DNA of 64,000 nt from Acholeplasma sp. (GCA_003605085.1 QZKD01000037.1:1-64000), one strand, 5' to 3'. Positions 2,253 through 43,806 are shown, counted from the first letter of the stretch. The notes: generated by a model from the letters alone, not told the origin. Numbers and translations are program-made.

Positions 2253-2279
2253 TACAAAAAAATAAGCATAATATGCTCA
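2253..2279 (-). terminator. Terminator at end of operon B (after nagB)
   Basis: On the minus strand AGCAT-ATT-ATGCT followed by TATTTTTTT, overlapping the nagB TGA stop. Confidence 0.7.
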
Positions 2280-3008: not shown

Positions 3009-3016
3009 GGGGTCTC

Positions 3017-21344: not shown

Positions 21345-21394
21345 TTCATGCTTTTTCAACATTAAAAAATTATTTTCACAAACTGCTTATTTCT

Positions 21395-27288: not shown

Positions 27289-28333
27289 CGTATTCCTCCC
27301 TCTTCGACATCACGAGATTTGCTATTTCATGTCTTAGTTTTAAAATGCTCTTGGTTTCACGAGATGGATGAACATCGTTCGATAATAGAACAAATCCAAC
27401 ACCTGCTTTTCGATCCATAAACATATTACATCCTGTAAATCCAGTATGCAAAATCGTATCATCAAAGGATACCATACTTCCAGCAGATGACATCATCGTA
27501 GGTTTATCCCAACCGAGTGCACGGATCAACACGTTTTCATTGGGTAATACTCTTTTTTCCTGAGCCATAAAGAGCATATCGAGTGTGTGATTGGAAAGTA
27601 CAAATTCTTTTCTTAGTATGGCTAGCATGAAACGTGCGATATCTTTAGTCGTTGAAAATAATCCAGCATGACCCGCTTCACCACCCATAGCAAACGCTTT
27701 TTCATCATGGACAAGTCCTTGAAGATAGCCTTGATAGACGTCATCGTTTCGATATTCGGTCGGAGCACATGTGGATGCTTTGGGATGATAGCCTGTATGT
27801 TTCATGCCAAGAGGTTTAAAAATGAGTTCTTGAGAAACCTCATCAAGACTTCGACCGGTGATCTTTTCAATGATCAGTCCAAGAAGGATATACCCTATAT
27901 CTGAATACACGATCGTTTCGCCTACTGGGGAAATGAGTGGTGCTGAAAAGACTTTATCCAAGACTTCATCTTTTGACTTTAATGTTTTTGCCCGAGGGAT
28001 ATCTGCCGGTAATCCTGATGTATGGGTCATTAAATGGTAGATGGTAATTTCAGGATGAATAAAACGATCTAGGATATCCTTGATCTTTGATTTAAGGCTT
28101 AATCTTCCCCCTTCAATCAAAGACATGATCATAGTGGTGGTTGATATCACTTTGGTCAATGAAGCGACATCATAGATGACACTTGACTTGTTTTTGATCT
28201 TTTTAGGGTGGGTTTGAAAATAACCTAATGTTTTTATTTCCATGTATCCGCTTACATGAACAATGGCGTAGGAGGCCCCTGCTAAGGAGCCTTCTTTAAT
28301 CACACCATTTAAAATATCATCAATAGCTTTCAT
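27278..28333 (-). CDS. Beta-lactamase-fold serine hydrolase, AmiE-like muropeptide amidase
   Basis: 351 residues, no signal peptide, therefore probably cytosolic. The penicillin-binding-protein/beta-lactamase fold is shown by SLTK (catalytic Ser-x-x-Lys, residues ~58-61), YSDIGY (Tyr of the second motif), EAGHAGLFSTTKDIARF, and HTGFTG replacing KTG. The B. subtilis muropeptide-recovery operon carries a relative, AmiE (YbbE), an N-acetylmuramyl-L-alanine amidase acting on MurNAc-peptides after NagZ. The same role fits here, removing residual peptides after import. A peptidase or esterase activity cannot be excluded. It overlaps both neighbours by 4 and 11 bases. Confidence 0.8.
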   Translation of the reverse strand: MKAIDDILNGVIKEGSLAGASYAIVHVSGYMEIKTLGYFQTHPKKIKNKSSVIYDVASLTKVISTTTMIMSLIEGGRLSLKSKIKDILDRFIHPEITIYHLMTHTSGLPADIPRAKTLKSKDEVLDKVFSAPLISPVGETIVYSDIGYILLGLIIEKITGRSLDEVSQELIFKPLGMKHTGYHPKASTCAPTEYRNDDVYQGYLQGLVHDEKAFAMGGEAGHAGLFSTTKDIARFMLAILRKEFVLSNHTLDMLFMAQEKRVLPNENVLIRALGWDKPTMMSSAGSMVSFDDTILHTGFTGCNMFMDRKAGVGFVLLSNDVHPSRETKSILKLRHEIANLVMSKREEYDEK

Positions 28334-31300
28334 AGTTTTAAGACGAATTTCCGAACCAAATAAATGGCTACTGCGAGCCCCGATACCGATCCACCGACAA
28401 TGGCGATGGTGACGACTGTTTGATTGACGTTAGGTTCTTCAGGATCTGTGATGGGCACACATACGCCATCAATGAGTTCTTCATCAGGCTCACAAATAGG
28501 TGGATTGGGCACACATATGCCATCAATCAATGTTTCATCAGGTTCACAGACCGGAGGATTGGGAACACAAATACCATCCACAAGCGTTTCATCAGGCTCA
28601 CAAATCACAGGTATTTCAGGTTCCACATCACTGGGCCATGGAAAGGTGACATACTCTGTCCAATAACTCTCCATCAATCGTTCTAAGGATTGAACGACCA
28701 GTGTATTTGTACTATTTAAGGTTTTATAGCTAAAGAATGAACTTCCTTTGATAATGTCATACTTTTGATTGTATCTGAGTTGTTCCATGAGTTCGTTTTC
28801 TGCTTCCCATGAACCATCAGCAAACCGGTAGAAACCATGTCCGATGATGAGATCAACCTCATTTTCACTGCAGAGTTCAGCCCACCAATCGACTAAATCT
28901 GCATAAGGTGCTGAACTATGATCAAATTCCCAGTAAAACTGGGGCATGATATAATGCAGCCAACCTTCTTCCACCCATTTCTTGGTATCTGCATATTGAT
29001 CATGATAGCTTTCTAGTGTATAAGGTGATGTATTGGATCCCTCTAAACCTTGAGATTGCCAAATGCCAAAGGGAGAAATTCCAAACTTAACGGTTTCGCT
29101 TTCACTTACATTATAACTCTCAACAATCGAAAAGAGATCAGAGACTAAGATATTGACGTTTTCTCTCCGCCAATCCGCTAAGGATTGATCGATTTCTTTG
29201 GTTCTTTCATAGGTGGCTGCATCCTCTGCATTATCCATCCCGTTATATGAGTAAAAATAGTCATCGAAATGAATACCATCGATATTGTATTCTGACATGA
29301 GTTCTTGAACAATGTTTTTGATGTATGCTCTCACTTGATTTTCACCAGGATTCAAAATAAGTCGTCCTGATAAATCTTGTAAAACAAGATCGGGATGTAG
29401 TTTGGCAAAATTATCGTCATGAAGAAGCGCTAATTGACTTTCTTTAGATCCTGTTCCTGTAGATACCCGATAAGGGTTCAGCCAGGCATGAATCTCAATA
29501 CCGCGCTTGTGTCCCTCTTCAATCCAGAACTCCAAGACATCCCATCCGGGATCTTGTCCTTCAATCCCCGTTAAATAACGAGAGAAAGGTGCGTACTCGG
29601 ATGGATAGAAGGCATCATTCATGGGTCGAACTTGCAAGAAAACCGTATTGAAATGATACGTGACGAGGGTATCTAAAATTTCAGTAATTTCTGCTTTATA
29701 TTGAGCTTCTGAAGTGTGAAGGGGGATATCGATGTTATTCACGGTTGCTACCCATACCGCACGCACTTCGGCTTCGTTTTCAATATATTCAATCGGAAGT
29801 TGAATGGGAATGGTTGAATTGTAATACGTCACCACCGTTCCATCGCGGATGACATATTCATTGTTTTCATCCGGTGGAATATCCATTCTAAGGCGTTCCT
29901 CTAAAACATCTGAGGTATTACCCGCTAAATCTTCTGCATAATACTCTAAGGTATAGGTCACGTTGAGATTTAAGATCAGTGCTTCACTAAACAAAGCCCA
30001 CGGTGTCCAAAGACTACCATTGTGAAGTCTAAAATAGACTATATCTCCTAAAGCACTCGGTGCTAAAGTGACTGTAGTTTCTCCGGTATAATATCTGCCA
30101 TCATAGGGACCATCAATGGTGATCGTTGGATCTAAAGGTGCCGTTAAATCAATGGTAAAAGTGATGCTTTGGATGGTGCCACACGCATCATCATTTTTGT
30201 ATTCAACGGTATATTCGCCTTCAGTTCCAAAGTAAAGATCATCTGTGTACGTTGTCCACTCTCCCCCATTGATCCGGTAAAGAAGGCTTGTTTGTCCGTT
30301 TATGGATAGTGTTGCTTCACGGTAATAAGGATCCGTTCCAGTCCCCAACAGTTCAATCTCTGGTTCTGGATAGCATGCTTGAACCACGGTAATTAAACGA
30401 TTGACTTCGATGGATTCAACGCCTTCACCGTTAATCGTCTTGGTACGAATATAATAATTCCCTGTATCATCTAAGGTGATTGGACCGGTGTATAGATTCC
30501 ACTCTCCCACACTACCGTGATTGATTGCAACCCATATGGTTTCACTGGTTGAAGTAATCGATACCATAGAACCCAGTACATAACTGGTGCTAATCATATC
30601 CCCGGTAATACTGATGACAGGGATATCATTATTTTGTTTATCGATGGTAATCGTATATCCAGAGATCAGTGATTCTTCGAGCGTATCTGAAATAGCTTTG
30701 ACATGCAGGCTATAGGTTTTTTCTTGATCAAAGATCAGAGGTTCTGTATAAAGTGTCCATGCTCCACCATCAATGCTTATAAAAATATCATGAGGTGATG
30801 TCATGGTTGCAGTGACATTGCTTGTATAAAGATTGCCTAACATAGTTCCGTTAAGGGTGACTTCTGGATTGGGGATATTGCTTTCTGCCCACATATTCAA
30901 AGGCGTTTCTGTCCAGTAGGTATTGCCCACCAAGGTCATTTGTGAACTTTCAAGATACGCTGCAGAATACATTGAAGATCCCTTAATTTCTGGATGTTTT
31001 TGATTGTATCTGAGTTGAACTTGAAGTTCATCGGTTGCCCAACTTGTATTGTGAGCCCCATGTCCGATGATTAAATCCACATCGGTTCCTCTAACCACCG
31101 ATGCCCACCAATCCACGACATCAGCATAAGGTGCGGTCGCATGCTCAAAACTCCAATAGACTTGAGGCATAATGTAATGGAGCCATCCCTCTTCTACCCA
31201 ACGTTTACTGTCCGCATATTGATCGTAATAGGATTCAGAAGTTCCAGTCGACGTATTGGACCCTTCTCCTTGGGACTGCCAAATACCAAAAGGAGAAATC

Positions 31301-32178
31301 CCAAAGCGTATATCTGTGTCGTTAGTGGTATTATATCCGACGACATCCTCCATCACACCACGGACAACATCATTGACATTTTCTCTTCTCCAATCACCTA
31401 AGGTTTGACCAGCAAGTTTATAGGTATCATAGGTGGCTGAATCGCTGGATAGTCCTGAATAAGGATAGAAATAGTCGTCAAAATGAACGCCATCGACATT
31501 ATATAAAGTGATGAGTTCAGTCACGACATTACGAATATATGTTTTAACTGCAGGTTCCCCTGGATTTAAGATATAAGGATATACACCTTCAGAGTTTGGA
31601 TTACCTGCGATCACTAAATTGGGGTTAATGCGTGCAAAATTGGTTGAGTGAAGTGCTGAAAGCATGGATGTTTTGCTTGCTGATGAGTTTTGAACACGGT
31701 AAGGATTCATCCATGCGTGAAACTCAATGCCTTGTGAATGTGCATAATCAATCATGTACTGCATGACATCCCAACCCGGACTCGTTCCTTCTGTCCCCGT
31801 GAGCCAGCGGCTCCAAGGAGCATATGATGATTGATAAAAGGCGTCGTTATTTGGACGTACTTGGAAAAGGATTGCATTCATGTTTTTCGCTTTAACTTTC
31901 GCGATTAACGCTTGATATGCCGTTTTATATTGTGTTTCACTGGTGTGAAGTGGCATGTTTAAATTATAGACAGTGGCTACCCAGACACCACGAAACTCAG
32001 TTTGACTTTCGCTATAACTATCTGGAATCATCACGGGATCGGTTGTGTTATAGTGCGTGACCGTGATGCCAGAGCGTGTTAAAACAATGAGTGATGCTGC
32101 TTCACTGAAGAAGCTAACACTCAAAAATAACATAAACATGATGAGAATGGAAAGTACTCCATATTTGATTTTGTTCAT
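28330..32178 (-). CDS. Secreted protein with two DigH/GHL10-type glycosidase domains
   Basis: 1282 residues. Signal peptide 1-27. Two GHL10 (DUF187) barrels, ~55-430 and ~790-1165, each with FRGVWVATV/VRAVWVATV, a LFQVRP- or LQVRP-type strand, the DGVHFDDYFYPY or DGIHFDDYFYSY loop with paired Asp, and FGISPFGIWQSQG. Between them lie several Ig-like beta domains. The tail has three CEPDE.L(V/I)DG(I/V)C units and a transmembrane segment with a basic end. E. coli DigH of this family cleaves peptidoglycan glycan lacking stem peptides. Next to the secreted amidase it would cut denuded strands into importable pieces. Confidence 0.85.
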   Translation of the reverse strand: MNKIKYGVLSILIMFMLFLSVSFFSEAASLIVLTRSGITVTHYNTTDPVMIPDSYSESQTEFRGVWVATVYNLNMPLHTSETQYKTAYQALIAKVKAKNMNAILFQVRPNNDAFYQSSYAPWSRWLTGTEGTSPGWDVMQYMIDYAHSQGIEFHAWMNPYRVQNSSASKTSMLSALHSTNFARINPNLVIAGNPNSEGVYPYILNPGEPAVKTYIRNVVTELITLYNVDGVHFDDYFYPYSGLSSDSATYDTYKLAGQTLGDWRRENVNDVVRGVMEDVVGYNTTNDTDIRFGISPFGIWQSQGEGSNTSTGTSESYYDQYADSKRWVEEGWLHYIMPQVYWSFEHATAPYADVVDWWASVVRGTDVDLIIGHGAHNTSWATDELQVQLRYNQKHPEIKGSSMYSAAYLESSQMTLVGNTYWTETPLNMWAESNIPNPEVTLNGTMLGNLYTSNVTATMTSPHDIFISIDGGAWTLYTEPLIFDQEKTYSLHVKAISDTLEESLISGYTITIDKQNNDIPVISITGDMISTSYVLGSMVSITSTSETIWVAINHGSVGEWNLYTGPITLDDTGNYYIRTKTINGEGVESIEVNRLITVVQACYPEPEIELLGTGTDPYYREATLSINGQTSLLYRINGGEWTTYTDDLYFGTEGEYTVEYKNDDACGTIQSITFTIDLTAPLDPTITIDGPYDGRYYTGETTVTLAPSALGDIVYFRLHNGSLWTPWALFSEALILNLNVTYTLEYYAEDLAGNTSDVLEERLRMDIPPDENNEYVIRDGTVVTYYNSTIPIQLPIEYIENEAEVRAVWVATVNNIDIPLHTSEAQYKAEITEILDTLVTYHFNTVFLQVRPMNDAFYPSEYAPFSRYLTGIEGQDPGWDVLEFWIEEGHKRGIEIHAWLNPYRVSTGTGSKESQLALLHDDNFAKLHPDLVLQDLSGRLILNPGENQVRAYIKNIVQELMSEYNIDGIHFDDYFYSYNGMDNAEDAATYERTKEIDQSLADWRRENVNILVSDLFSIVESYNVSESETVKFGISPFGIWQSQGLEGSNTSPYTLESYHDQYADTKKWVEEGWLHYIMPQFYWEFDHSSAPYADLVDWWAELCSENEVDLIIGHGFYRFADGSWEAENELMEQLRYNQKYDIIKGSSFFSYKTLNSTNTLVVQSLERLMESYWTEYVTFPWPSDVEPEIPVICEPDETLVDGICVPNPPVCEPDETLIDGICVPNPPICEPDEELIDGVCVPITDPEEPNVNQTVVTIAIVGGSVSGLAVAIYLVRKFVLKL
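28459..28602 (-). repeat. Three 54-bp tandem repeats encoding a C-x10-C unit
   Basis: Encodes three consecutive copies of CEPDETLVDGIC followed by VPNPP(V/I), residues ~1193-1240, just outside the C-terminal membrane anchor. The Cys pairs could form small disulfide loops in a stalk. Confidence 0.85.
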
Positions 32179-33389
32179 TCAGACTTCCTTCCTACAAATA
32201 ATGCTTTTAATTGATCCATGCCTTCTTTTGCTTTTTCGGTATCAATGAATGTTTTATACGTAAAGAAAACATTGCCTTTAACACTTTCATATTGATTGGC
32301 ATATTTGACTTGATCAACGACTTCCGCTGAATTCAAATAGCGCCCATCAGTACCGAGTCGGTACGCACCATGTCCAATATATAAATCGACAGGTGAGTCT
32401 TTACACAAGTCTTGCCACCAATCGACGATATCAGCAAATGGAGCTAACTTGTGACCGAAGTCAAAATAAATTTGTGGGACGATATAATCGATAATACCTT
32501 TTTTAACCCAGTCATACGCATCTGCATATTGACCATAATAGCATTCACCACAGTGTGGATCGACATTGGCACCTTGCGGATCACTGTATTTGGTTTTCCA
32601 GATACCAAAAGGTGACAGTCCAAAACGCAATTTTGGATTTTTCTCTTTGAGAGCATGATAGATTTTTTCCATGGCATCCGTGACGTGATGTCGTCTAAAA
32701 TCGCCTAGTGACCAATCAAGATTTTCGCGATACTCGTAATCTTTTAAATCATTTTCCACGTCATCTAATCCTGCATAGGGATAAAAATAGTCATCAAAAT
32801 GAATGCCATCGACATCATAGTTTGTGACAAGTTCCAACATGGAATCCACTAAAAATTGTTTAACTTCTTCTCTTGCTGGATTTAAAATAATCTGCCCTTT
32901 TTTATCTTTCACGATGAGTTCAGGATGACGTTTTGCAAAATTTTTGTCATCACATGTGTTTAGATACTCATCTTTGGGTATGTTTCCATTTAAAGAGATG
33001 CGATAGGGGTTACACCACGCATGAAATTCTAAACCACGCGTTTTGGTTTCCTCAATGATCCATTTTAAAATATCATAAGGCGGTTCTTTACCTTCAGTAC
33101 CTGTGAAGTAGCGACTATAGGGATTTAACTCCGATCGATAAAAGGCATCGTTTGTCGTTCTTACTTGAAATAGAATTGCCGTCATGTTGTACTCTTTGGC
33201 TGTATCCAGCATACGAATGACTTTCTCTTCATATGTTTTGATATCTTCTACGGTTGGTAGATCGATATTGACGACGTTGGAAACCCAAAAAGCACGAAAT
33301 GGTTTTTCATGATAGTTTTCTGGGATATTCACTGGATGATCTGTGCCAAAATGATTGATGCGATGTCCATCAGGATGATAAATAGGCAT
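32175..33389 (-). CDS. Cytosolic DigH/GHL10-type glycosidase
   Basis: 404 residues forming one GHL10 domain like those of the neighbouring secreted protein (FRAFWVSNVVNIDLP, DGIHFDDYFYPYAG, FGLSPFGIWKTKY, DYIVPQIYFDFGHK) but without signal peptide or anchor. It probably cleaves longer imported peptidoglycan oligosaccharides inside the cell, feeding NamZ and NagZ. Start and stop overlap neighbours by 1-4 bases. An intracellular member next to a secreted tandem copy suggests duplication with division of labour. Confidence 0.85.
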   Translation of the reverse strand: MPIYHPDGHRINHFGTDHPVNIPENYHEKPFRAFWVSNVVNIDLPTVEDIKTYEEKVIRMLDTAKEYNMTAILFQVRTTNDAFYRSELNPYSRYFTGTEGKEPPYDILKWIIEETKTRGLEFHAWCNPYRISLNGNIPKDEYLNTCDDKNFAKRHPELIVKDKKGQIILNPAREEVKQFLVDSMLELVTNYDVDGIHFDDYFYPYAGLDDVENDLKDYEYRENLDWSLGDFRRHHVTDAMEKIYHALKEKNPKLRFGLSPFGIWKTKYSDPQGANVDPHCGECYYGQYADAYDWVKKGIIDYIVPQIYFDFGHKLAPFADIVDWWQDLCKDSPVDLYIGHGAYRLGTDGRYLNSAEVVDQVKYANQYESVKGNVFFTYKTFIDTEKAKEGMDQLKALFVGRKSE

Positions 33390-34708
33390 TAATTTTTCTC
33401 CTTGTAATAGGTCAAATAAGGTGCATGGGCAACCAACAACTCATCAAATGCTTTTTGTGCTTGAACGATCGAGTGGGTCATTGGATGCATCTGTAACGCA
33501 AGTCTCGCTTTACCTAGGTTCTTTTCATAAATGGCATCGACGAGAAGTTCTTCATAAGCTTTAACCTGTTGAATTAACCCTCTGATTTGCACAGGAAGTT
33601 CACCGATATGAACCGGAATAGGACCATCTTTGGTGATACGGCAGGTAATCTCTATCGCGCATCCATCAGGTAAGTCTTTAATATGTCCGTTATTGACTGT
33701 ATTGACCACCTGATAGTCTCTTTTGTCATTCACTATCGATGAGATTACACTACATGCCACATCTGAGTAATAGGCTCCACCGCGTTTTTCGAGTTCTTTT
33801 GGCTTTTCTTTTAAGTTTGGATCGCGATATTGTTCGAAAAGTCGGTCTTCAATAGCTTTGACGAGTTCAGCTCGCGTCTCGTTCTTTGCATAGGATTCTA
33901 AAAACTTTTTAAACATTTCCTCATAGAAATAATAATATTTTAAATAGGGTGATGGATAACAGCCCAATTCCTTCATGAAGGCATAACTCCATGCAAGTGG
34001 ATCGATGTTATTCATGGTCATCTGTTTTTCTTTGATCTTATCAATAATTTCCGGTAAACGATCTTTCTTGTTATGGAAGACATTTAAAACAAAAGATAGA
34101 TGATTTAACCCTGCAAAGATAGGAACAAGTTTATCGGGTTTAACATCGAGTACATCCGAAAAATGCATCGTCATATTGATAGGGACATTACAAACACCAA
34201 TATAGCGATCAAATTCAGCGTAACGGAAGACTGCTTCGGATACGACTCCTGCTGGATTGGTGAAATTAATGAGCCATGCGTGTTCACAAAGTTCTTTCAT
34301 ATCCTTGATGATATCAAAGATGATGGGGACTGTACGAAGCGCTTTGAAGACACCGCCTGCACCATTGGTTTCTTGACCAAGCATGTTGTATTTCGCAGGA
34401 ATGCGTTCATCTTTAATTCTTGCTTCTAAAAGACCTACACGAAATTGTGTCGTTACAAAATCTGCATTAGGAAGTGCTTCTCTTCGATCAAGTGTTAAAT
34501 AGACCTTGATGGGAAGATTTGCTTTTTCGACCATGCGTTTCGCTAATTGACCGACAATCTCTAGCTTTTCTTTACCTTCGTCGATGTCAACAAGCCAAAT
34601 TTCAGCAAGTGGTAATTCGTTATACCGCTTGATAAATCCTTCGATAAGTTCTGGGGTGTAGGATGAACCACCACCAATTGTGACTATTTTTAAACCGTGT
34701 TCTGTCAT
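33389..34708 (-). CDS. GH4-family NAD-dependent glycosidase
   Basis: 439 residues. An N-terminal Rossmann motif VTIGGGSSYTPELIEG, then NAD/metal-site blocks typical of family 4: TNPAGVVSEA, CNVPIN, GLNHLSF. GH4 enzymes hydrolyse glycosides, often 6-phosphorylated, by a redox mechanism needing NAD+ and Mn2+. Relatives are annotated 6-phospho-beta-glucosidase. Placed between an amino-sugar kinase and a DigH-like enzyme, the substrate here may instead be an amino-sugar disaccharide or its 6-phosphate; this is inference. Translationally coupled on both sides. Confidence 0.85.
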   Translation of the reverse strand: MTEHGLKIVTIGGGSSYTPELIEGFIKRYNELPLAEIWLVDIDEGKEKLEIVGQLAKRMVEKANLPIKVYLTLDRREALPNADFVTTQFRVGLLEARIKDERIPAKYNMLGQETNGAGGVFKALRTVPIIFDIIKDMKELCEHAWLINFTNPAGVVSEAVFRYAEFDRYIGVCNVPINMTMHFSDVLDVKPDKLVPIFAGLNHLSFVLNVFHNKKDRLPEIIDKIKEKQMTMNNIDPLAWSYAFMKELGCYPSPYLKYYYFYEEMFKKFLESYAKNETRAELVKAIEDRLFEQYRDPNLKEKPKELEKRGGAYYSDVACSVISSIVNDKRDYQVVNTVNNGHIKDLPDGCAIEITCRITKDGPIPVHIGELPVQIRGLIQQVKAYEELLVDAIYEKNLGKARLALQMHPMTHSIVQAQKAFDELLVAHAPYLTYYKEKN

Positions 34709-35676
34709 AGTGCGCCACTCTCCTTGAGATTGTGATCAATCGTCTTGGTTTGTTCGATCTTGAGATGATCAAGTGCTCTTAAATACGCGCCTACCATCGG
34801 AGAATATTTTGGTTGAATCAAATACGCTTTAGGGACTTCCTGTTTTAGAACATCAAGCATCTTATCTTTAAGTCTTTGATTCCCATCTTTGAAGACACGT
34901 CCCCCAATCACAACAGGAAATGCTTCATCTTCTGCTTGAATTTGTTTGATCACACCTGCGGTTTGATGCCCTAAATAAACCGCCATCTTGTCAATGATTT
35001 CTTGACAAACTTGATCGCCTTGATCAGATAAAGCAAAGACTAATCCAGTAATCATACCTAGTTGTTCTCTTGAAAGTACATTTTTAGGATAGAGAAGTGG
35101 AATCAGTTTTTCCATGGAATCTAAGTGAAAGAGTTTAGGAATTTCTTGACTTAATTTTGTCGGTATATAGGTCATTTCATTATCACGAAAGGCGAAGTGT
35201 AGTGCTTCTCTAGCGATGTCAAGTCCGCCCCCATAAATACCTAGAATGAAGCCTAAACTTCGTAAGATTGCCTGTTTGCCATTCTTATGAATCGCTGCGG
35301 CATTCGTTCCAGTCCCGGAGATACAAACTGCGCCATGAGGCTCTTTTAAACCACTTCTTAAAATCAACCATGCATCGTTTTCTAACGAGAAGGGAATTTG
35401 ACCCAATAGATGTTTAGTGGCACGATTTAGTTTATCAAAATCATCGACCGTGTCTGCACCTGTAAGTCCTAAGTGTGCATAGGAGAGATCGCTAAGTGAT
35501 ATATGAAGAGCATTTAATGCTTCCTCAAGAAGCATTTTGACGACTTCTTCATAGGTATGAATGCCTAAGGATTGATGGGAACAACCTGGACCTATGGTGC
35601 GATAAAGGATATGACCCTCTAGATCAAAAATACCAAGATCTGTTTTTGTTCCTCCACCATCAATGGCTAATATCAT
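34705..35676 (-). CDS. BadF/BadG-family amino-sugar kinase, second copy
   Basis: 323 residues, actin-like kinase: AIDGGGTKTDLG at 4-15, ISGTGTNAAA, GIYGGGLDIAREAL, and a C-terminal VGAYLRAL segment. Its family includes GlcNAc kinase and MurK. It differs clearly from the copy at 3913-4830, so the two probably divide GlcNAc and MurNAc (or disaccharide) substrates. It overlaps anmK and the GH4 gene by 4 bases each. Confidence 0.83.
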   Translation of the reverse strand: MILAIDGGGTKTDLGIFDLEGHILYRTIGPGCSHQSLGIHTYEEVVKMLLEEALNALHISLSDLSYAHLGLTGADTVDDFDKLNRATKHLLGQIPFSLENDAWLILRSGLKEPHGAVCISGTGTNAAAIHKNGKQAILRSLGFILGIYGGGLDIAREALHFAFRDNEMTYIPTKLSQEIPKLFHLDSMEKLIPLLYPKNVLSREQLGMITGLVFALSDQGDQVCQEIIDKMAVYLGHQTAGVIKQIQAEDEAFPVVIGGRVFKDGNQRLKDKMLDVLKQEVPKAYLIQPKYSPMVGAYLRALDHLKIEQTKTIDHNLKESGAL

Positions 35677-36836
35677 GATATACCTTCTTCTTTGTGATAA
35701 TAGGTCACTTGACCTAAGATAGTTTTTCTTTTTGCCCCAGTGGCTTTTAATACATTACTTGGTTGCTTGTGAAGTGTCTCATGACCAAGAATGAGAAAAG
35801 CTAGAGCTTCTTTTGCATCACCATGGCCACCAATCTGATTGATAGTTAACCAAGTGATTTCAGGAAGTCTCTTTTCTAATTCACCAAGAATAAACTGGTT
35901 GTGCATACCTCCACCCGAGATAATGACTTCATCAACCCTGTGCTTGGGCAAGATGAAATGCTTGAATTGATGAATGATGGAGTTTACGGTAAACATGGAT
36001 AATGTATGAATGATGTCTTCAGGTTTTTCTTGTTGGTATGTGTTGAGCAGGGCATGTGTATATAATCTTCCAAAGATTTCACGACCGGTTGATTTGGGAG
36101 GTTCCATCAAGAGATATGGATGATTCATAAGCTCATTCATGAGTGAATCGATCATCTTTCCTGAAGATGCAATGTTTCCATCTTCATCATAAGAACGTTG
36201 ATAAAACAGATACATCGCTTCATCAATCATCATATTTCCCGGTCCTGTATCAAATGCATAAACATCATCTTCTGTGGCTTGCTTGGGTAATACAGTGACA
36301 TTGGAAATTCCTCCGATGTTATGTAGTACGCGCGTTTTTTCTTCGTCTCTATAAAGGATATAATCCATATAAGGGACTAAAGGTGCTCCAACTCCACCTT
36401 CTGCAATATCTGCATTTCTAAAATTAGTGATGACAGTTGTCTTCATGATGGAAGCAATCGCTGAACCATCACCGAGTTGTAGTGAAGATCGCACATGGGT
36501 TTTATCGTCTTCGTTAATATGCCATATGGTTTGTCCATGTGAACTGACAAATGCAATATGATCAATTGGAATATGATTCTTTTCGCATAATCGTTTCGCA
36601 GCAAAACCAAAAGCGTAGCCTAATTCCATATTCAGACTGGTGATTAATTCTAGGCTACAAGAGATTGGATTTAATGCTTGAATGATTCTTTTCTTCAAAA
36701 GGGGGTCAAATGGAAAGGTCTCGAAAGCAACTAAATCAACTCGTGTTGACTTACCCATGCCATCGATTGATGCAATCACTACATCGATCCCATCCAATGA
36801 GGTGCCACTCATGATGCCAACTGCCATGTCCTTCAT
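35673..36836 (-). CDS. anmK: Anhydro-N-acetylmuramic acid kinase
   Basis: About 387 residues from the ATG at 36836 (GAGGTG 6 bases ahead). It opens the 1,6-anhydro ring of anhMurNAc and phosphorylates it, giving MurNAc-6-P for MurQ. Signatures: GIMSGTSLDGIDVV, SHGQTIWH, HNIGGISNVTVLP, DTGPGNMMIDEAM, ISGGGMHNQFI. AnhydroMurNAc arises from lytic transglycosylases, none of which is seen here, so the substrate probably comes from wall turnover of other bacteria. First gene of operon A. Confidence 0.95.
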   Translation of the reverse strand: MKDMAVGIMSGTSLDGIDVVIASIDGMGKSTRVDLVAFETFPFDPLLKKRIIQALNPISCSLELITSLNMELGYAFGFAAKRLCEKNHIPIDHIAFVSSHGQTIWHINEDDKTHVRSSLQLGDGSAIASIMKTTVITNFRNADIAEGGVGAPLVPYMDYILYRDEEKTRVLHNIGGISNVTVLPKQATEDDVYAFDTGPGNMMIDEAMYLFYQRSYDEDGNIASSGKMIDSLMNELMNHPYLLMEPPKSTGREIFGRLYTHALLNTYQQEKPEDIIHTLSMFTVNSIIHQFKHFILPKHRVDEVIISGGGMHNQFILGELEKRLPEITWLTINQIGGHGDAKEALAFLILGHETLHKQPSNVLKATGAKRKTILGQVTYYHKEEGIS

Positions 36837-36859
36837 GACAACCACCTCGATCTAACTCT

Positions 36860-36914
36860 ATTATAAAACAACCGTAGGTTTGCTGTAAGTTTTCCCCATC
36901 GTTATGGTTGTTTT
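36860..36914 (-). promoter_or_regulatory. Operon A promoter with separated inverted repeats
   Basis: -10 TATAAT (36860-36865) with a CTTACA-like -35 at 18-base spacing. AAAACAACC (36865-36873) and GGTTGTTTT (36906-36914) form 9-bp inverted arms, one touching the -10 and one about 40 bases upstream, a plausible paired site for a SIS-domain regulator. Confidence 0.45.
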
Positions 36915-36945
36915 TTTCAATTATGAGAAAAAACACCTGATTCAT

Positions 36946-36977: not shown

Positions 36978-37823
36978 TTAACGTTTAAATTTTTTAAATG
37001 TCTTATACGTCATTTCTAGTGTTCTTACTGAACGGTCGATATCGGTATAGGCACAGTGAGCAAAGAGTGCATCCACGACACACATTTGAGAGATACGTGA
37101 GGTCATCGCCCCACTACGGAATTCACCTTCGAGTGATGAGGTATATAAAACGATATCTGAGAGGTCCGCTAAGATCGAAGATCCTAGTTTAGTAATAGAA
37201 ATAATCTTCGCTTTATTTTCTCTGGCTAGCAATGCAGCACTGACAATTTCTTTTGTTTTACCTGAGTTTGAGATAAAGATAATCACATCTTTTTGATTGA
37301 TAAATGAAGCATCTACGAGCTGCTCATGGGATTCTCCTTGAGCGATACAAAACTTGTTGATACGTCTTAATTTCATCTCTAAATCCTTACAGACAAGATA
37401 GGAAGATCCTTTACCAAAAATGAGAATCTTTCGTGCGCTCATGATCAGTTCTGCAGCTTGCTTGGTGATGTCTTCATCGTAAAGTTTTAAGGTGTCTTCT
37501 AACACGCGAATATTATTTTCAATCGCGCTTCGACCGCAATGTTCATCTCGACCTAAAATCACATCGACATATTCTTTATTTTCAGGTATTTCTACCTTAG
37601 CGTTCGCTAAAATAAAATCAATTTTAAAATCCTTGAATCCTTTGTACCCTAATTTTTTACACATCCGAACTACGGATGCAGGGGAGGTATAGGCGGCTTC
37701 AGCTATTTTTTCCACACTAAAATCTTTAATGGTTTCTTTGTTTTCAATCAGATAATCTAAAACAACACGTTCTGCCATGCTAAGTTCTTCTTTGTACTTA
37801 AGCATATTAAGCATGACGCTCAT
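36978..37823 (-). CDS. RpiR/MurR-type transcriptional regulator
   Basis: 281 residues. N-terminal helix-turn-helix (~10-75; FSVEKIAEAAYTSPASVVRM, KKLGYKGFKDFKIDF) and a C-terminal SIS domain (~120-250; ILIFGKGSSYLVCKDLEMKL, IIFISNSGKTKEIV) that binds phosphosugars. MurR-type members answer to MurNAc-6-P or GlcNAc-6-P. Monocistronic and upstream of operon A, so it probably controls operon A and perhaps B and the lactate operon. The effector is inferred from context. The ribosome site is GAGGTGATTTC. Confidence 0.88.
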   Translation of the reverse strand: MSVMLNMLKYKEELSMAERVVLDYLIENKETIKDFSVEKIAEAAYTSPASVVRMCKKLGYKGFKDFKIDFILANAKVEIPENKEYVDVILGRDEHCGRSAIENNIRVLEDTLKLYDEDITKQAAELIMSARKILIFGKGSSYLVCKDLEMKLRRINKFCIAQGESHEQLVDASFINQKDVIIFISNSGKTKEIVSAALLARENKAKIISITKLGSSILADLSDIVLYTSSLEGEFRSGAMTSRISQMCVVDALFAHCAYTDIDRSVRTLEMTYKTFKKFKR

Positions 37824-37995: not shown

Positions 37996-39393
37996 TTAGA
38001 TGACTTTTCCAGGATTTAAAATGTGTTTTGGATCAAAGGATGCTTTGATTCCACGCATTATTGTAAGTTGCGTTTCGCCGAGTTGTTTTTTCATATACTC
38101 TCTTTTTGCATAACCGATACCATGTTCACCAGAAACAAGTCCACCATATGAAAATGCCTTTTCATAAAGTGCATGAAAACCTACATCAAGTTTTTCATGC
38201 CATGTGGCATCATCAAGTCCATCCTTACAGAAGTAGATATGAAGATTACCGTCTCCAACATGGCCAAAATAAGGAATTCTAATCTCTAGCTGATTAGATA
38301 TTTCTCTGACATAGTTCAAGAAGTTAGCGATATTCGATCGTGGTAATACCACATCACATTCATCAATCTCAGATGTTGATGCTTTGATCGCTTCAAGGAA
38401 ACCACCACGCACCGTCCAAACGCTTTTTCTTCGCTCTTCGGTATCCACTAAAAATACATCAAGCGCATGGTACTTATCGATACAAAGTGCACTTGCAACT
38501 TCAATATCTTCATCAATGGCTTTTTCATTATTGCCATCATAACTGATGAGTAGATAAGCTTCATAGTTATTGTGAGGGATCTTCTTCCCTAAGAATTCCT
38601 CAGAATATTGCAAAGATTGTTTTTCTAAAAACTCGAGAGCTGTGGGTAACACATGATCCATAATCAGTTGAGGTGCTGCAGCGATCGCATCTTCTCTTGA
38701 AGCGAAAGGAACGAGCAAGCTTACCGTTTTCTTTGGTTTTGGAATGAGCTTTAATGTCGCTTCAACGATGATTCCCAATGTGCCTTCGCTACCTATAATC
38801 AGGTCCTTTAGGCCATATCCTGTGGAATTCTTGACAACTTTTCCACCAAATTTGACAATTTCTCCATTGGGGAGAACCACTTCTAGTCCACGCACCCAGT
38901 CACGTGTAACTCCGTATTTAATTGCTCGCATACCTCCAGCATTGGTCGAAATGTTTCCACCAATGGTTGCTGATTTTTCTCCTGGATCAGGTGCGTAAAA
39001 GAGGTTTTCTTTTTCGACATGTTCATAAATATCCATCAAAAGAACACCCGGTTCAACGCGTAGGGTTAGGTTCGTTTTATCGAGTTCAATGATTTGGTTC
39101 ATGCCGGATACATCAAGTAGAATACCACCCAAAATAGGAACACACGCACCGACTAATCCTGTTCCACTCCCACGGACTGTGACAGGAATGGTCTGTTCAT
39201 AGGCATAAGTCATGATTTTGGATACTTCGTATTTATCTTTAACTTTCACATGAACTTCAGGCATATGTTTGATGGTTTGAAGTTCATCATGGGCATAATC
39301 TTGTTCGATCTGGTCACCAGAAAAGAGATGGTCTTTACCGACAATGTTTGCTAAGAATTCAAGATCTTTCGTTTCAATTTTATGGTAGTTCAT
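37996..39393 (-). CDS. FAD-linked D-lactate dehydrogenase, LctD/GlcD type
   Basis: About 466 residues from the ATG at 39393. FAD-binding type-4 (PCMH) signatures TVRGSGTGLVGACVP, GEKSATIGGNISTNAGG, GSEGTLGI, then the C-terminal metal-site motifs GHVGDGNLHIYF and SGEHGIGYAK. The gene follows etfB and etfA in the same order as lctBCD of Acetobacterium woodii, whose complex oxidises D-lactate with NAD+ driven by reduced ferredoxin. Here D-lactate from MurQ is the obvious source. Glycolate or 2-hydroxyglutarate as substrates cannot be excluded. No lactate permease or racemase is adjacent, which fits an internal supply. Confidence 0.85.
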   Translation of the reverse strand: MNYHKIETKDLEFLANIVGKDHLFSGDQIEQDYAHDELQTIKHMPEVHVKVKDKYEVSKIMTYAYEQTIPVTVRGSGTGLVGACVPILGGILLDVSGMNQIIELDKTNLTLRVEPGVLLMDIYEHVEKENLFYAPDPGEKSATIGGNISTNAGGMRAIKYGVTRDWVRGLEVVLPNGEIVKFGGKVVKNSTGYGLKDLIIGSEGTLGIIVEATLKLIPKPKKTVSLLVPFASREDAIAAAPQLIMDHVLPTALEFLEKQSLQYSEEFLGKKIPHNNYEAYLLISYDGNNEKAIDEDIEVASALCIDKYHALDVFLVDTEERRKSVWTVRGGFLEAIKASTSEIDECDVVLPRSNIANFLNYVREISNQLEIRIPYFGHVGDGNLHIYFCKDGLDDATWHEKLDVGFHALYEKAFSYGGLVSGEHGIGYAKREYMKKQLGETQLTIMRGIKASFDPKHILNPGKVI

Positions 39394-40589
39394 CATTTCA
39401 CCTGCCATATTTGATCAATCAGTTTGTTCAGTTCAGGTAAGACTTCATATAGATCTCCCACGATACTGTAATGACTGATGTCAAAGAGTTTATTGTGTTC
39501 ATCCTGATTGACGGTAATAATTAAATCCGCTTCTTTCATACCTTCAATATATTGGACGGCACCACTAATCCCAAGATTGATAATCAATTTAGGTTTGACC
39601 GTACGTCCCGAAAGTCCGATTTGGTGTTTCGCATCAAACCATCCATTCTCAATGAGCGGACGAGTACACGCCACTTGTGCATCGAGTTTTTTCACTAAAG
39701 GTTCGATAAGTGCAAGATCTTTTTCTTTTTTGAAAGCTCGACCTACCGCGATAATGACATCGGCATCAGAAATATCTTTGACTTGAGGTTTATCTAAGCG
39801 ACTGATTAAATGAATTCGATCAGGAAGTTCAATACCTTCAATGGATTCATGTGAGATGATACCATGAGGTGTTTCTTTTTCAGGTAGTTTAAACATCTTA
39901 TACCTGATGGTCGCTAGTTGTGGACGATGATTGGGGGTATTGATCTTTGCCATGATGTTACCACCAAAAGCTGGTCTAATCTGTAACAAATCACCATCTT
40001 CTTTGATATCGAGCATCGTACAATCAGCGGTTAGTCCTGTTTTTAATCGAGCGGCAATTCTTGGCGCAAACGATCTTCCAAAAGGGGTTGACCCTAATAA
40101 GATAACATTGTTCTTATAGTGTAAGTAAAAGGATTCTACAACGCGAGCATAGCGTTCAACATTGAATGTTTCTAACGCGATATGATCATAGACAAAGACA
40201 CGGTCTACACCATATTCCAATGCTTCTTCTGCCATCTTTGCTACGTTATATCCAATAAGTAGTGCAAACACGGGTTCCTGGGTTTTCTTGGCGAGTTCTT
40301 TTGCTTTTCCGATAAGTTCCCACGAGACATGATGTACTGCTTGGTGATGATGTTCGATATAGACCGTGATGCCTTTAAATAATGATTTATTCACGGAAGG
40401 TTTCACAGTTTCAACGAGCTCACAAATGCCTTCGGGTCCTTTTTTCACACATAACTTACAAATCTTGCATGATGCATTAATAGAAAGATACGCATCTTGA
40501 TACTCAAATGCGTTAAATGGACAAAGATCAATCAATTTCTTAGCAGCCTCAGGGGTTACTTTATCATTGTGGACTTTAATATATGCCAT
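39393..40589 (-). CDS. etfA: Electron-transfer flavoprotein alpha subunit with N-terminal ferredoxin-like domain
   Basis: About 398 residues, longer than a plain EtfA. The first ~60 residues hold Cys near 23, 41, 44, 47 and 56 (CPFNAFEY, CKICKLC), able to bind one [4Fe-4S] cluster, as in LctC of bifurcating lactate dehydrogenases. The EtfA part follows, ending in the FAD domain (GLSGRTVKPKLIINLGISGA, FDISHYSIVGD). With EtfB it carries two flavins. Start chosen at the second Met for SD spacing (AGGTGAAATG). It overlaps the dehydrogenase start by one base. Confidence 0.9.
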   Translation of the reverse strand: MAYIKVHNDKVTPEAAKKLIDLCPFNAFEYQDAYLSINASCKICKLCVKKGPEGICELVETVKPSVNKSLFKGITVYIEHHHQAVHHVSWELIGKAKELAKKTQEPVFALLIGYNVAKMAEEALEYGVDRVFVYDHIALETFNVERYARVVESFYLHYKNNVILLGSTPFGRSFAPRIAARLKTGLTADCTMLDIKEDGDLLQIRPAFGGNIMAKINTPNHRPQLATIRYKMFKLPEKETPHGIISHESIEGIELPDRIHLISRLDKPQVKDISDADVIIAVGRAFKKEKDLALIEPLVKKLDAQVACTRPLIENGWFDAKHQIGLSGRTVKPKLIINLGISGAVQYIEGMKEADLIITVNQDEHNKLFDISHYSIVGDLYEVLPELNKLIDQIWQVK

Positions 40590-40597
40590 CATTTCAC

Positions 40598-41389
40598 CTA
40601 AAGATATCGATTGTCTTTTAAGACATCGAAAAATGCTTTTGCAAGATCGCTCTTCTTGCCTTTAATCATCTTTGTTTCGGTTCTTTTTTGCGGTGGAAAA
40701 ATTTCATCGACTTGTGTCGGTGATCCGGATAGACCATAATGATCCGGATTTTGATCATCAAGATCCTTGAGAGAAACGATCTTGACCAAGGTATCTTTCA
40801 TCTTTCTTTTTCTAAGATAAGAAGGAAGTCTTGGTGTATTCATGCCTTTATCTATCGTTAAAAGACAAGGGAAATCAATTTCAATAAGTTCTTCATATTC
40901 ATCGTAAGCTGAGCGTACGATGAGTGAATGTTCTTTGATCTCGATAATTTCTTTGACATAAGGAGTATGAGGGATACCTAAAAATTCTGCAATCTCAGGT
41001 CCCACTTGTGCGGTATCACCATCGGTGGTCTGTTTACCACAGATAACGACGTCATAAGGACCGATATGTTCAATCAGTTGACTTAGCGTGTATGAGGTTG
41101 CTAAAACATCCGCTCCAGCAAAACGGCGATCGCTGATCAGTGTCCCTTGATCAGCACCCATATAGATGGCCTCATAAAGAACTTGACTTGCTGCAGGTGG
41201 TCCCATGGAAATCGCGTGAACACATGCATCCTTTGAACGTTCTTTAAGTTCAAAAGATGCCTCAAGTGCAAAAAGATCAAAAGGATTCATTTTAACGTTG
41301 TTTCCATCTCTGATGAGCACACCGGTTTTGGGATCTACTTGGACATTGGACGATGCAGGAACTTGCTTGATGCAGGTAATTATTTTCAT
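40598..41389 (-). CDS. etfB: Electron-transfer flavoprotein beta subunit
   Basis: 263 residues. Typical EtfB: CIKQVPASSNVQVDPKTGVL, MNPFDLFALEASFELKE, and the nucleotide loop GKQTTDGDTAQVGPEIAEFL. In bifurcating Etfs this subunit binds the flavin that splits electrons. First gene of the three-gene operon, 8 bases ahead of etfA. Confidence 0.92.
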   Translation of the reverse strand: MKIITCIKQVPASSNVQVDPKTGVLIRDGNNVKMNPFDLFALEASFELKERSKDACVHAISMGPPAASQVLYEAIYMGADQGTLISDRRFAGADVLATSYTLSQLIEHIGPYDVVICGKQTTDGDTAQVGPEIAEFLGIPHTPYVKEIIEIKEHSLIVRSAYDEYEELIEIDFPCLLTIDKGMNTPRLPSYLRKRKMKDTLVKIVSLKDLDDQNPDHYGLSGSPTQVDEIFPPQKRTETKMIKGKKSDLAKAFFDVLKDNRYL

Positions 41390-41440: not shown

Positions 41441-41512
41441 CTTAACTTGAATAGCCTTTCCATCATTTGCACATTATTTTTTCAAGTTTAGGAAAATATG
41501 TTCGTAGCTATA

Positions 41513-41537
41513 AGAAAAAAGCCACAGAGGTGGCTCT
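41513..41537 (-). terminator. Terminator of ROK/PIG-L operon
   Basis: AGCCAC-CTCT-GTGGCT followed by T5, directly after the PIG-L stop codon. Confidence 0.8.
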
Positions 41538-42388
41538 TAATCCATCATTTTCTTTATGCGATTAAAAACATCTTTTTTGAATCGTTCGATGTAGGAGGTT
41601 ACATACGTAACGATATCGAGTGTATCATCTTCAATAAGTGGTGTTAAATCCATCGCGTTGATGATTTGATCCGCACGATCCACCTTATGAGCAATGGCAT
41701 AGGTTGCATTGGCAGCACGTCGACCGATGGTTGCCACATCATAACGTTTTCCACCCGCAATTTGGGAATCAAACACTTCGACTAAGGCTTGTGCTAAATC
41801 GGGATGGCCTGAAACATTGAACTGAATCTTTTCTTCATCCAGCATCCAGTCTAAATCACGCCATACTTCACATCCATACACTTTCTTAGGACGCACTTCT
41901 TTGGGTAATCGTCTTAATGCTTGAATCACTTTGGTCGTCACGCCGATATGGGTGTCGTGTTTATCCGCAAGATTATGCGTATATAGAATCTCTGGTCTTG
42001 CAGCTAAAAGGATTCTTTCAAGATCATCAACAACAAACTTATTGTTAGGATCCTTAGTTTCTTTACTCGAATATTCAAGGAGTGCAAGAGCTCCAAATTC
42101 ACCAATCGTCGCAGCTTTTTTTTGTTCGATTCGTCTAACTTCAATCATATCTTCATCGGTATAATCTTTGTAGATACCCTCTCTTGCAGAGCCACTACCG
42201 TTGGTTACGACCACACCTAAAAACCATTGATCATCATGTCCTAAACATTGCAATATACCATCATATGCCATGATCTCAATATCATCTTGATGAGCAGCAA
42301 TCGACATGTGAGTTGTGCGTTTAATCGCTTCACTAAGCTCTTTATTATCAGGTATATACCATGATGCTTGGGGTTTATTTAGTTTCAT
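41537..42388 (-). CDS. PIG-L/LmbE-family deacetylase
   Basis: About 283 residues from the ATG at 42388 (GAGGGAGACT ahead). The zinc motif AHQDD (near residue 32) and the second His site HDTH define the PIG-L/LmbE family, enzymes that deacetylate GlcNAc in conjugates. No signal peptide, so cytosolic. It overlaps the ROK-like gene. Given the missing nagA it could contribute to amino-sugar deacetylation here, but family members usually act on glycosides rather than GlcNAc-6-P; the substrate is unknown. Confidence 0.8.
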   Translation of the reverse strand: MKLNKPQASWYIPDNKELSEAIKRTTHMSIAAHQDDIEIMAYDGILQCLGHDDQWFLGVVVTNGSGSAREGIYKDYTDEDMIEVRRIEQKKAATIGEFGALALLEYSSKETKDPNNKFVVDDLERILLAARPEILYTHNLADKHDTHIGVTTKVIQALRRLPKEVRPKKVYGCEVWRDLDWMLDEEKIQFNVSGHPDLAQALVEVFDSQIAGGKRYDVATIGRRAANATYAIAHKVDRADQIINAMDLTPLIEDDTLDIVTYVTSYIERFKKDVFNRIKKMMD

Positions 42389-42396
42389 AGTCTCCC

Positions 42397-43806
42397 TCAC
42401 TTCTTTATTTCTGGAAGGCTGGCAGCAGCAATCGACTGACCAACTCTTCTGTTGTTTTCATCGGGTAATACAATCTCGATGGTAGAGGCTAACTCTGGAA
42501 ATTCATCTGCCAAGATGTCTTTAGCGACATCAAGCATAATCTCGCCACCTTTTCCAGAAGTGACACGACCTAAAATCATTACGACCTGGATTTTATAGAA
42601 TAGGCTATAGTAGGCTAAACCGTAGGCTAAATAAGCTCCCATGGTTTGATATATCTCTTCTGCTTTTGGATCTCCATAAGCCATCATACTCTGAATCATC
42701 TTTAATTTACTTGCTGGAGAAAGATCATCTTCAAGTTCAATCTTGGCTGCTTTCGCGAGTTTTATAATCGCTTCTTGTGAAAAATACTCAACTCCAACAC
42801 CTAAATCCCCAGACCAAGGGTCTACTTCAGCGTTCGGATTCAAATCTAAAGGTACAAAGGCAAGTTCATTGAGCCATCCAGTAATGTTACCAAATTCATC
42901 TACATAACCCGCTGCTTCAGATGTTCCCATGGCGATACCTAAAACTTGATGCTTTCCTAAACTCATCGCTCCTGCTAAAGCGGTGACGTCACCATCATTG
43001 GCAACTTCAATGGGAATATCACCCATCTCTTTAGCGATATCTAGATACATATCCTTAATTTTATCATGAAAATCTTGATCATTCACTTGAATGTAAAGGG
43101 ATCCGACCATGGTCTTATTATCGATATATATCCCTGCTGCAGAGACACCAATCGCATCCACTCTAGGCATTTTTGAAGCAGCTCTTAATAATGAATCTTT
43201 CACTCCTTCAATATGATAGTTTGGATCATGATGAAGTTTAGGATACCAAACGATTTCTTCAGAATAAATGGGGTTCCCATCGATAACAGCAGAGACCTTG
43301 CGGTCCGAACCACCTGCATCAAAACCAATGCGATATCCATTTAAATGTCTTCCTATGGGTTTAGATGTTTCATTCGTTTGAGGAAGACTATCATATGTCG
43401 TGATGATCACTTTAAATGGGTGTTCATAGACTCGACTCATAAACGCTTGATCAAATGATCTTTGACCGTCTTTTGAATAGATATCTTGAATCGCTTGACC
43501 AAGATACTCTGGTCCACCAATAAAGACTCGAAAGCCGCCTTTAAGCCAAAGGAGAGTTTTGACTAAACGCTCGATATAAAGAATATTCTCATGTTGATAT
43601 TTTTCACTAGAGAAAATTTGTGTTTCGTATGTAGCTATCTGCCCTTGACTACGCTCTAATGCGATACCGACTTTGATGGGAGATGCTTCTTCTTTTACCG
43701 CATGTTCAAAAGCCCGAAAAGCCAAAACAATCGGAAGATAATCAGGATCTAAAACAAGATGATGTTTGGGATGTTGGTTAAATGTGAATGGATTCATAGG
43801 GATCAT
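42397..43806 (-). CDS. ROK-like protein with N-terminal extension
   Basis: 469 residues. Residues ~1-150 match nothing I recognise. From ~153 the ROK/actin-like fold appears: RIGFDAGGSDRKVSAVIDG (phosphate 1), IGVSAAGIYID, VANDGDVTALAGAM, and LGIAMGTSEAAGYVD. It is probably a sugar kinase or degenerate sensor; the usual ROK zinc-site CxCGxxGC is not visible. Coupled to PIG-L, so amino sugars are a possible substrate. It starts at ATG 43806, close to GAGGTGTC; an ATG at 43797 is an alternative. Confidence 0.7.
   Translation of the reverse strand: MIPMNPFTFNQHPKHHLVLDPDYLPIVLAFRAFEHAVKEEASPIKVGIALERSQGQIATYETQIFSSEKYQHENILYIERLVKTLLWLKGGFRVFIGGPEYLGQAIQDIYSKDGQRSFDQAFMSRVYEHPFKVIITTYDSLPQTNETSKPIGRHLNGYRIGFDAGGSDRKVSAVIDGNPIYSEEIVWYPKLHHDPNYHIEGVKDSLLRAASKMPRVDAIGVSAAGIYIDNKTMVGSLYIQVNDQDFHDKIKDMYLDIAKEMGDIPIEVANDGDVTALAGAMSLGKHQVLGIAMGTSEAAGYVDEFGNITGWLNELAFVPLDLNPNAEVDPWSGDLGVGVEYFSQEAIIKLAKAAKIELEDDLSPASKLKMIQSMMAYGDPKAEEIYQTMGAYLAYGLAYYSLFYKIQVVMILGRVTSGKGGEIMLDVAKDILADEFPELASTIEIVLPDENNRRVGQSIAAASLPEIKK

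Follow-up and report, generated by a model that had tools for sequence, protein, structure and literature searches.

An LctBCD-type lactate dehydrogenase locus probably coupled to MurQ-dependent peptidoglycan fermentation in Acholeplasma sp. and related Bacilli

The residues on which electron confurcation depends in the lactate dehydrogenase complex of Acetobacterium woodii (Ldh-EtfAB, or LctBCD) have been named through cryo-electron microscopy and mutagenesis (PMC9232219). The lct genes of Clostridium ljungdahlii have a GntR/FCD regulator, LctP and LarA as their neighbours. In Fusobacterium nucleatum the electron-transferring flavoprotein (Etf) of the Ldh-ETF-Bcd-LrgAB cluster is canonical (Phe replaces Gly123) and its electrons pass to butyryl-CoA dehydrogenase (PMC12630350), and engineered C. 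glutamicum grown on N-acetylmuramic acid (MurNAc) accumulates lactate, the use of which would need the quinone-dependent enzyme Dld (PMC6165865). In the present work, we have analysed a stretch of 64,000 nucleotides from Acholeplasma sp. (GCA_003605085.1 QZKD01000037.1:1-64000; hereafter the window) that carries, at positions 37996–41389 of the minus strand, a locus of the lctBCD type within a series of genes for peptidoglycan utilisation, including murQ, the gene for MurNAc-6-phosphate etherase.

Our analyses lead us to consider, with good confidence, that this locus encodes an electron-confurcating D-lactate dehydrogenase of the LctBCD type serving peptidoglycan fermentation and coupled to MurQ-derived D-lactate. 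Such a coupling had been suggested by an earlier reading of this DNA (the sequence-only reading), and it is now supported by the co-occurrence of the genes, by their conserved neighbourhood, by a contiguous run of them in one relative and by a separate arrangement in Clostridia.

Identity of lctBCD and the residues for electron confurcation

The three genes of the locus encode, in order of transcription, an EtfB protein, an EtfA protein and an FAD dehydrogenase, and their ends overlap or nearly abut. The first, lctB (40598–41389, minus strand), specifies the EtfB subunit carrying the bifurcating b-FAD (Pfam ETF; PDB 7qh2_B, E 1.4e-89); lctC (39393–40592, minus strand) specifies the EtfA subunit with an N-terminal one-[4Fe-4S] ferredoxin domain (Pfam ETF and ETF_alpha; PDB 7qh2_A, E 4.6e-131); and lctD (37996–39408, minus strand) specifies the FAD- and metal-dependent lactate dehydrogenase subunit (Pfam FAD_binding_4 and FAD-oxidase_C; PDB 7qh2_C, E 2.7e-181). 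The best solved relatives of all three proteins are LctB, LctC and LctD of A. woodii (PDB 7QH2), with identities of 55, 53 and 57%, respectively. The genome, whose content was assessed by protein-family searches only, has ETF domains in just two places, viz. lctB and lctC. The sequence-only reading had equated the order etfB-etfA-FAD dehydrogenase with lctBCD of A. woodii and had assigned a [4Fe-4S] N-terminus to EtfA; the first is borne out by the coordinates, the Pfam domains and the matches to 7QH2, and the second by the motif C-x17-CxxCxxC. Judged from these similarities, the identity of the enzyme as an LctBCD-type lactate dehydrogenase is close to certain.

The residues named for the A. 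woodii complex (PMC9232219) were mapped onto 61–63 orthologues, across which those required for confurcation in LctB and LctC are nearly invariant. The b-FAD motif DGDTAQVGP is complete in the LctB of the window; in the 61 LctB orthologues seven of its positions, including Gly123, do not vary, Val is present in 60/61 and the last Pro in 51/61. The NAD-site RxFxG and the anchor SPT are both kept in LctB, and LctC retains the four cluster cysteines (C-x17-CxxCxxC) and the equivalent of Arg205 (Arg205 to N5 of b-FAD). A Gly in EtfB divides FAD-binding from AMP-binding Etf proteins (PMC12630350). Since both the b-FAD motif and the invariant Gly are present, this Etf groups with the bifurcating types; membership of a non-bifurcating type, which the sequence-only reading had named as one outcome that would refute the coupling, is ruled out by DGDTAQVGP, with RxFxG, SPT, Arg205 and the four cysteines also in place.

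The substrate site of LctD is similarly conserved. The equivalents of the metal site His377/His384/Glu422, the base His423, Arg328 and Glu37/Glu139 are all kept in the window, and the metal-site and lactate-site residues are identical in every orthologue that covers the position (62–63). The superfamily to which LctD belongs is broad, and its NCBIfam match is GlcD, under the cut-off of that family, so that action on another 2-hydroxyacid (e.g. glycolate or 2-hydroxyglutarate) might be envisaged; it is very improbable in view of the E value of 2.7e-181 to A. woodii LctD, as against 1.4e-70 to glycolate oxidase, the next-best solved relative, and of the retention of every 7QH2 lactate-site and metal-site residue that was checked.

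Association of lctBCD with murQ

Co-occurrence of LctC and murQ in related genomes, a check proposed in the sequence-only reading, was determined in a set of 61 relatives, where LctC was counted when full-length, and in a class-wide sample of 395 genomes, and the result was positive in both. Among the relatives, murQ is present in 24/24 genomes with LctC and in 4/37 without it (Fisher p 3e-13, kinship ignored); in the class sample it is present in 47/48 LctC genomes and in 55/347 others (p 5e-31, kinship ignored). The pattern also holds within genera, where 12 genomes of genus g1 have both genes, 8 have neither and none is discordant, and the corresponding numbers of genomes with both genes and with neither are 3 and 2 for genus g21 and 1 and 1 for genus g4. 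The four relatives that have murQ only comprise G056, which is only 85% complete, and G021, G029 and G034, which are informative because PFOR (pyruvate:ferredoxin oxidoreductase), the expected source of ferredoxin, is also missing there. G113, the only genome of the class sample that has LctC but lacks murQ, carries LarA immediately upstream.

Both genes lie on one contig in 34 genomes, and in 34/34 of these they share a strand, at distances of at most 41 kb. Two arrangements are seen. In 20 of the 34 genomes murQ lies upstream of lctB at a distance of <5 kb, the most compact example being locus L085, where murQ and lctB are ~15 bp apart within the contiguous run namZ-nagZ-murK-anmK-murQ-lctB-lctC-lctD-GH4-kinase; the loci of families f9 and f19 have ~0.8 kb between the two genes. 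In the remaining 14 genomes, including that of the window, lctBCD is at one end of an island of genes and murQ at the other, 31–41 kb downstream, and the gene order between them is kept across families. A chance association of lctBCD with murQ is rejected on the tests of co-occurrence, strand and distance.

One of the f9/f19 loci was read through (L116), and there a gene at 2344–3072 between murQ and lctB encodes a 242 amino acid (aa) alpha/beta hydrolase (Hydrolase_4/Abhydrolase); the other loci of these families show an equally long gap at this position.

In a quick maximum-likelihood tree of LctD (108 rows; short search without bootstrap), nearly all linked lctD genes belong to a single 56-row clade (SH-aLRT, an approximate likelihood-ratio branch support, 97), which comprises 25 peptidoglycan-linked genes, 20 murQ-linked genes and 11 with no visible linkage, several of these 11 being on short contigs. 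Outside this clade are a metagenome-assembled genome (MAG) from Clostridia (L185), in which lctBCD is preceded by murQ, by a divergent murR and by the gene of a BadF kinase that overlaps lctB, and a Mycoplasmataceae MAG (L179), in which murQ is ~1.1 kb from lctD in convergent orientation. Because these two linked loci lie outside the main clade, the partnership of murQ and lctBCD seems, from the tree, to have formed more than once, and a separate origin in at least one Clostridia lineage appears to have taken place.

The LctC proteins of these two MAGs have features of their own. That of the Clostridia MAG (L185:5417-6676) has extra N-terminal cysteines in a two-cluster pattern, as opposed to the one-cluster protein of the window, and in the Mycoplasmataceae MAG the reading frame of LctC (L179:9989-11158) stops early under translation table 11, probably because TGA is read as Trp there.

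The peptidoglycan-utilisation island and its candidate operators

The minus-strand genes of the window from ~45 kb down to 2.3 kb constitute a peptidoglycan-utilisation island, and all of the genes listed here are on that strand. Next to lctD is murR (36978–37823), encoding a MurR/RpiR-type regulator (HTH_6 and SIS domains) that is kept beside lctD in relatives at 72–100% identity. It is followed by anmK (35673–36845), encoding the anhydro-N-acetylmuramic acid kinase that makes MurNAc-6-phosphate (NCBIfam NF007142, 516 bits vs a cut-off of 435), and by genes for a BadF/NagK-type amino-sugar kinase (34705–35676; Pfam BcrAD_BadFG), a family 4 glycosidase (33389–34708; Pfam Glyco_hydro_4 and 4C) and a GHL10 glycosyl-hydrolase-like protein (32175–33389; Pfam PF02638). 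Further downstream are the genes for a secreted N-acetylmuramoyl-L-alanine amidase with immunoglobulin-like repeats (24058–27288; Pfam Amidase_2), the exo-beta-N-acetylmuramidase NamZ (6384–7526; Pfam NamZ_N and NamZ_C), the beta-N-acetylhexosaminidase NagZ (4805–6394; NCBIfam NF003740, over cut-off), a MurK-like BadF-family kinase for MurNAc/N-acetylglucosamine (3913–4830; Pfam BcrAD_BadFG, NagK-like under cut-off), MurQ, which releases D-lactate (3017–3919; TIGR00274, 395.8 bits vs a cut-off of 302), and the glucosamine-6-phosphate deaminase NagB (2277–3008; TIGR00502, over cut-off). Over its full length, the murQ product aligns with MurNAc-6-phosphate etherases of solved structure (PDB 1nri and 4lzj, E 2e-99). 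The island also holds a beta-lactamase-fold (PBP4B-like) protein, other GHL10 proteins and two substrate-binding proteins together with permeases (the transport functions were assigned by eye), and, upstream of lctBCD, a phosphodiester glycosidase, a PIG-L protein and a ROK protein. The statement of the sequence-only reading that lctBCD abuts the MurR regulator and the operon beyond it holds for murR and the anmK run, which do adjoin, and does not extend to murQ, which is ~34 kb downstream of lctBCD.

Some features of the island deserve mention in their own right. For the murR product, the identity to the copies of four congeners is 97–100%, as compared with only 76–89% for LctC of the same genomes, an unusually strong conservation for a regulator. 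Neighbouring GHL10-like genes at 28330–33389 are kept in the island across families, and one of them encodes a protein of 1282 aa in which the domain is repeated (by eye). Directly upstream of lctB, the PIG-L deacetylase-like and ROK-like genes (41537–43806) recur in the islands of relatives.

An operator-like palindrome, TTTTC-N8-GAAAA, is present as a perfect match upstream of both lctB (41479–41496, minus strand) and anmK (36914–36931, minus strand), and the latter site is kept upstream of anmK in relatives. These are the only two perfect matches in the 64 kb, where 0.37 would be expected; this count alone is weak, because 7/100 shuffles also reach two. A weight matrix built solely from the anmK upstream regions of relatives gives its highest score in the window to the anmK site; of the other distinct sites, the one upstream of lctB leads with 19.0 bits, as against 9.2 bits for the next unrelated site. 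This test is partly circular, because the motif was picked after inspection of both upstream regions. A promoter scan of the window was uninformative, with 14 sites as against 15 expected. From the shared palindrome, lctBCD and anmK are likely to be co-regulated, and MurR would be the likely regulator acting at both predicted operators; co-regulation of lctBCD with murQ is possible. A single lctBCD-murR-anmK-murQ transcript is unsupported in the window; its hairpins and the palindromes upstream of genes point to several units.

The neighbourhood of lctBCD bears upon whether the enzyme is an ordinary one for external lactate, placed in the island by chance or carried along on one mobile block. 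LctP (PF02652) is absent from the genome and from 61/61 relatives, which disfavours an external-lactate operon, and it is present in 4/48 LctC genomes of the class sample. Neither LarA nor a GntR/FCD regulator adjoins lctBCD in the window, where the neighbours are MurR and the PIG-L protein, in agreement with the earlier remark that no lactate permease or racemase is adjacent; LarA-family matches in the relatives (16/61) are weak and occur regardless of LctC. The island is gained and lost as a unit within genera, and part of the co-occurrence could therefore reflect one linked event; moreover, lactate can pass membranes in the absence of LctP. The existence of two arrangements (murQ <5 kb upstream or 31–41 kb downstream), the linkage outside the main clade in L185 and L179, the lack of LctP in the 61 relatives and the palindrome common to the lctB and anmK upstream regions nevertheless make an origin of this kind distinctly unlikely.

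Several observations weigh against the coupling of lctBCD to murQ. Members L079, L115, L119, L134 and L136 of the LctD clade carry lctBCD away from peptidoglycan genes, and the f22 genomes hold both genes unlinked. External lactate is a possible substrate, for it crosses membranes as the acid or through transporters other than LctP, and a weak LarA-family match is found elsewhere in the genome (60 bits; genuine LarA gives 208–250 bits). Upstream of the transporter genes leading to murQ, relatives conserve TGAAAATAATTTTTCAATTGTGAAAAT (21349–21374 in the window, minus strand, ahead of a binding-protein gene in that part of the island where murQ lies), and this murQ-operon motif has half-sites similar to those of TTTTC-N8-GAAAA but a different spacing. 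A hairpin lies between lctD and murR; together with the 34 kb to murQ it makes one lctBCD-murQ transcript unlikely in the window, where the two are probably transcribed separately.

The proposed pathway and its relation to known systems

Other genes of this genome and published work on related enzymes fit the proposed use of muramic acid. PFOR is encoded on contig C7 (1706 bits), RnfC on contig C14 and [FeFe]-hydrogenase on contigs C19 and C35. For MurC, taken as a single marker of wall synthesis, the best match in the genome is 18.5 bits vs a cut-off of 335, and no full MurC was found in any same-genus genome examined, in line with the loss of the wall reported for Acholeplasmatales and Izemoplasmatales (PMC10868615). 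The absence of MurC makes a foreign wall the likely source of peptidoglycan, and recycling of the cell's own wall is disfavoured on this one marker. In Anaerostipes hadrus a related lct cluster without a racemase supports the use of D-lactate only (PMC8914356), which fits the D-lactate product of MurQ.

In the pathway that we propose, the secreted and cytoplasmic hydrolases, AnmK and the BadF-type kinases would convert foreign peptidoglycan to MurNAc-6-phosphate, from which MurQ would free D-lactate. LctD would then oxidise D-lactate to pyruvate, with ferredoxin-assisted reduction of NAD+ by the complex, and PFOR would use the resulting pyruvate to regenerate reduced ferredoxin, thereby pulling the near-equilibrium reaction. 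The net yield from the lactyl group would be acetyl-CoA, CO2 and 2 NADH; hydrogenase and Rnf would rebalance the carriers, and the MurR-type regulator would probably control lctBCD and anmK jointly. The sequences themselves establish which genes are present, the retention of the catalytic residues, the linkage and co-occurrence with murQ, the palindrome common to lctB and anmK, and the existence of PFOR, RnfC and hydrogenase genes, whereas the substrate and its stereochemistry, the direction of the reaction, the regulation and the energy yield are inferred.

The direction could also be the opposite one, with the complex bifurcating electrons from NADH so that pyruvate is converted to D-lactate and ferredoxin is reduced, as a redox valve whose location would reflect shared fermentation regulation only. 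Lactate oxidation by the complex can be reversed and lies close to equilibrium (about +6 kJ/mol; PMC5861303), and Rnf and hydrogenases able to take reduced ferredoxin are present. We regard this as unlikely, given that the linkage is specific to murQ, whose product is D-lactate and which is often directly upstream, that D-lactate production would be opposed by its own product where MurQ already frees D-lactate, and that the A. woodii enzyme serves lactate consumption.

If it proceeds as proposed, the oxidation of MurQ-derived D-lactate would allow strict anaerobes to draw energy from the three-carbon side chain of muramic acid. In the described MurNAc pathways the D-lactate released by MurQ is a by-product without a dedicated enzyme, whereas here its oxidation looks built in; this suggests a nutritional role of peptidoglycan for wall-less Bacilli and a role of confurcating lactate dehydrogenase that is independent of external lactate. 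It is fairly probable that these loci represent a widespread, undescribed mode of anaerobic energy metabolism. Foreign peptidoglycan would then be part of the diet of many Bacilli, among them several that are apparently wall-less, and a dedicated confurcating D-lactate dehydrogenase would oxidise the lactyl ether of its muramic acid; the partnership of murQ and lctBCD appears to have emerged independently in at least one lineage of Clostridia. Searches of the literature on murQ with Etf or lctD and on MurNAc with D-lactate and ferredoxin, which covered few subscription papers, gave no description of this coupling, as the sequence-only reading had supposed for the operon level, and we appear to be dealing with a known enzyme in a new and undescribed pathway context.

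CarCDE, the caffeyl-CoA reductase-Etf complex of A. woodii (PDB 6FAH), shares a bifurcating EtfAB with a ferredoxin domain, and differs in its two clusters in EtfA, its acyl-CoA dehydrogenase partner and its lower similarity to the window proteins. The F. nucleatum cluster likewise encodes a D-lactate dehydrogenase with an ETF (PMC12630350); unlike it, the window has an Etf with the bifurcating Gly and b-FAD motif, and no Bcd beside lctBCD. The closest enzyme is LctBCD of A. woodii (Ldh-EtfAB, 7QH2), with which the window proteins share subunits, gene order, 53–57% identity, the cluster motif and the flavin and lactate sites; the surroundings differ from those of canonical lct loci, in that MurR, AnmK and peptidoglycan hydrolases are found instead of LctP, LarA and a GntR/FCD regulator. 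The closest pathway is the MurQ-dependent catabolism of MurNAc in E. coli, T. forsythia and C. glutamicum, where MurK or AnmK together with MurQ also free D-lactate from MurNAc by way of MurNAc-6-phosphate; unlike the locus in the window, the pathway described in those organisms includes no lactate dehydrogenase.

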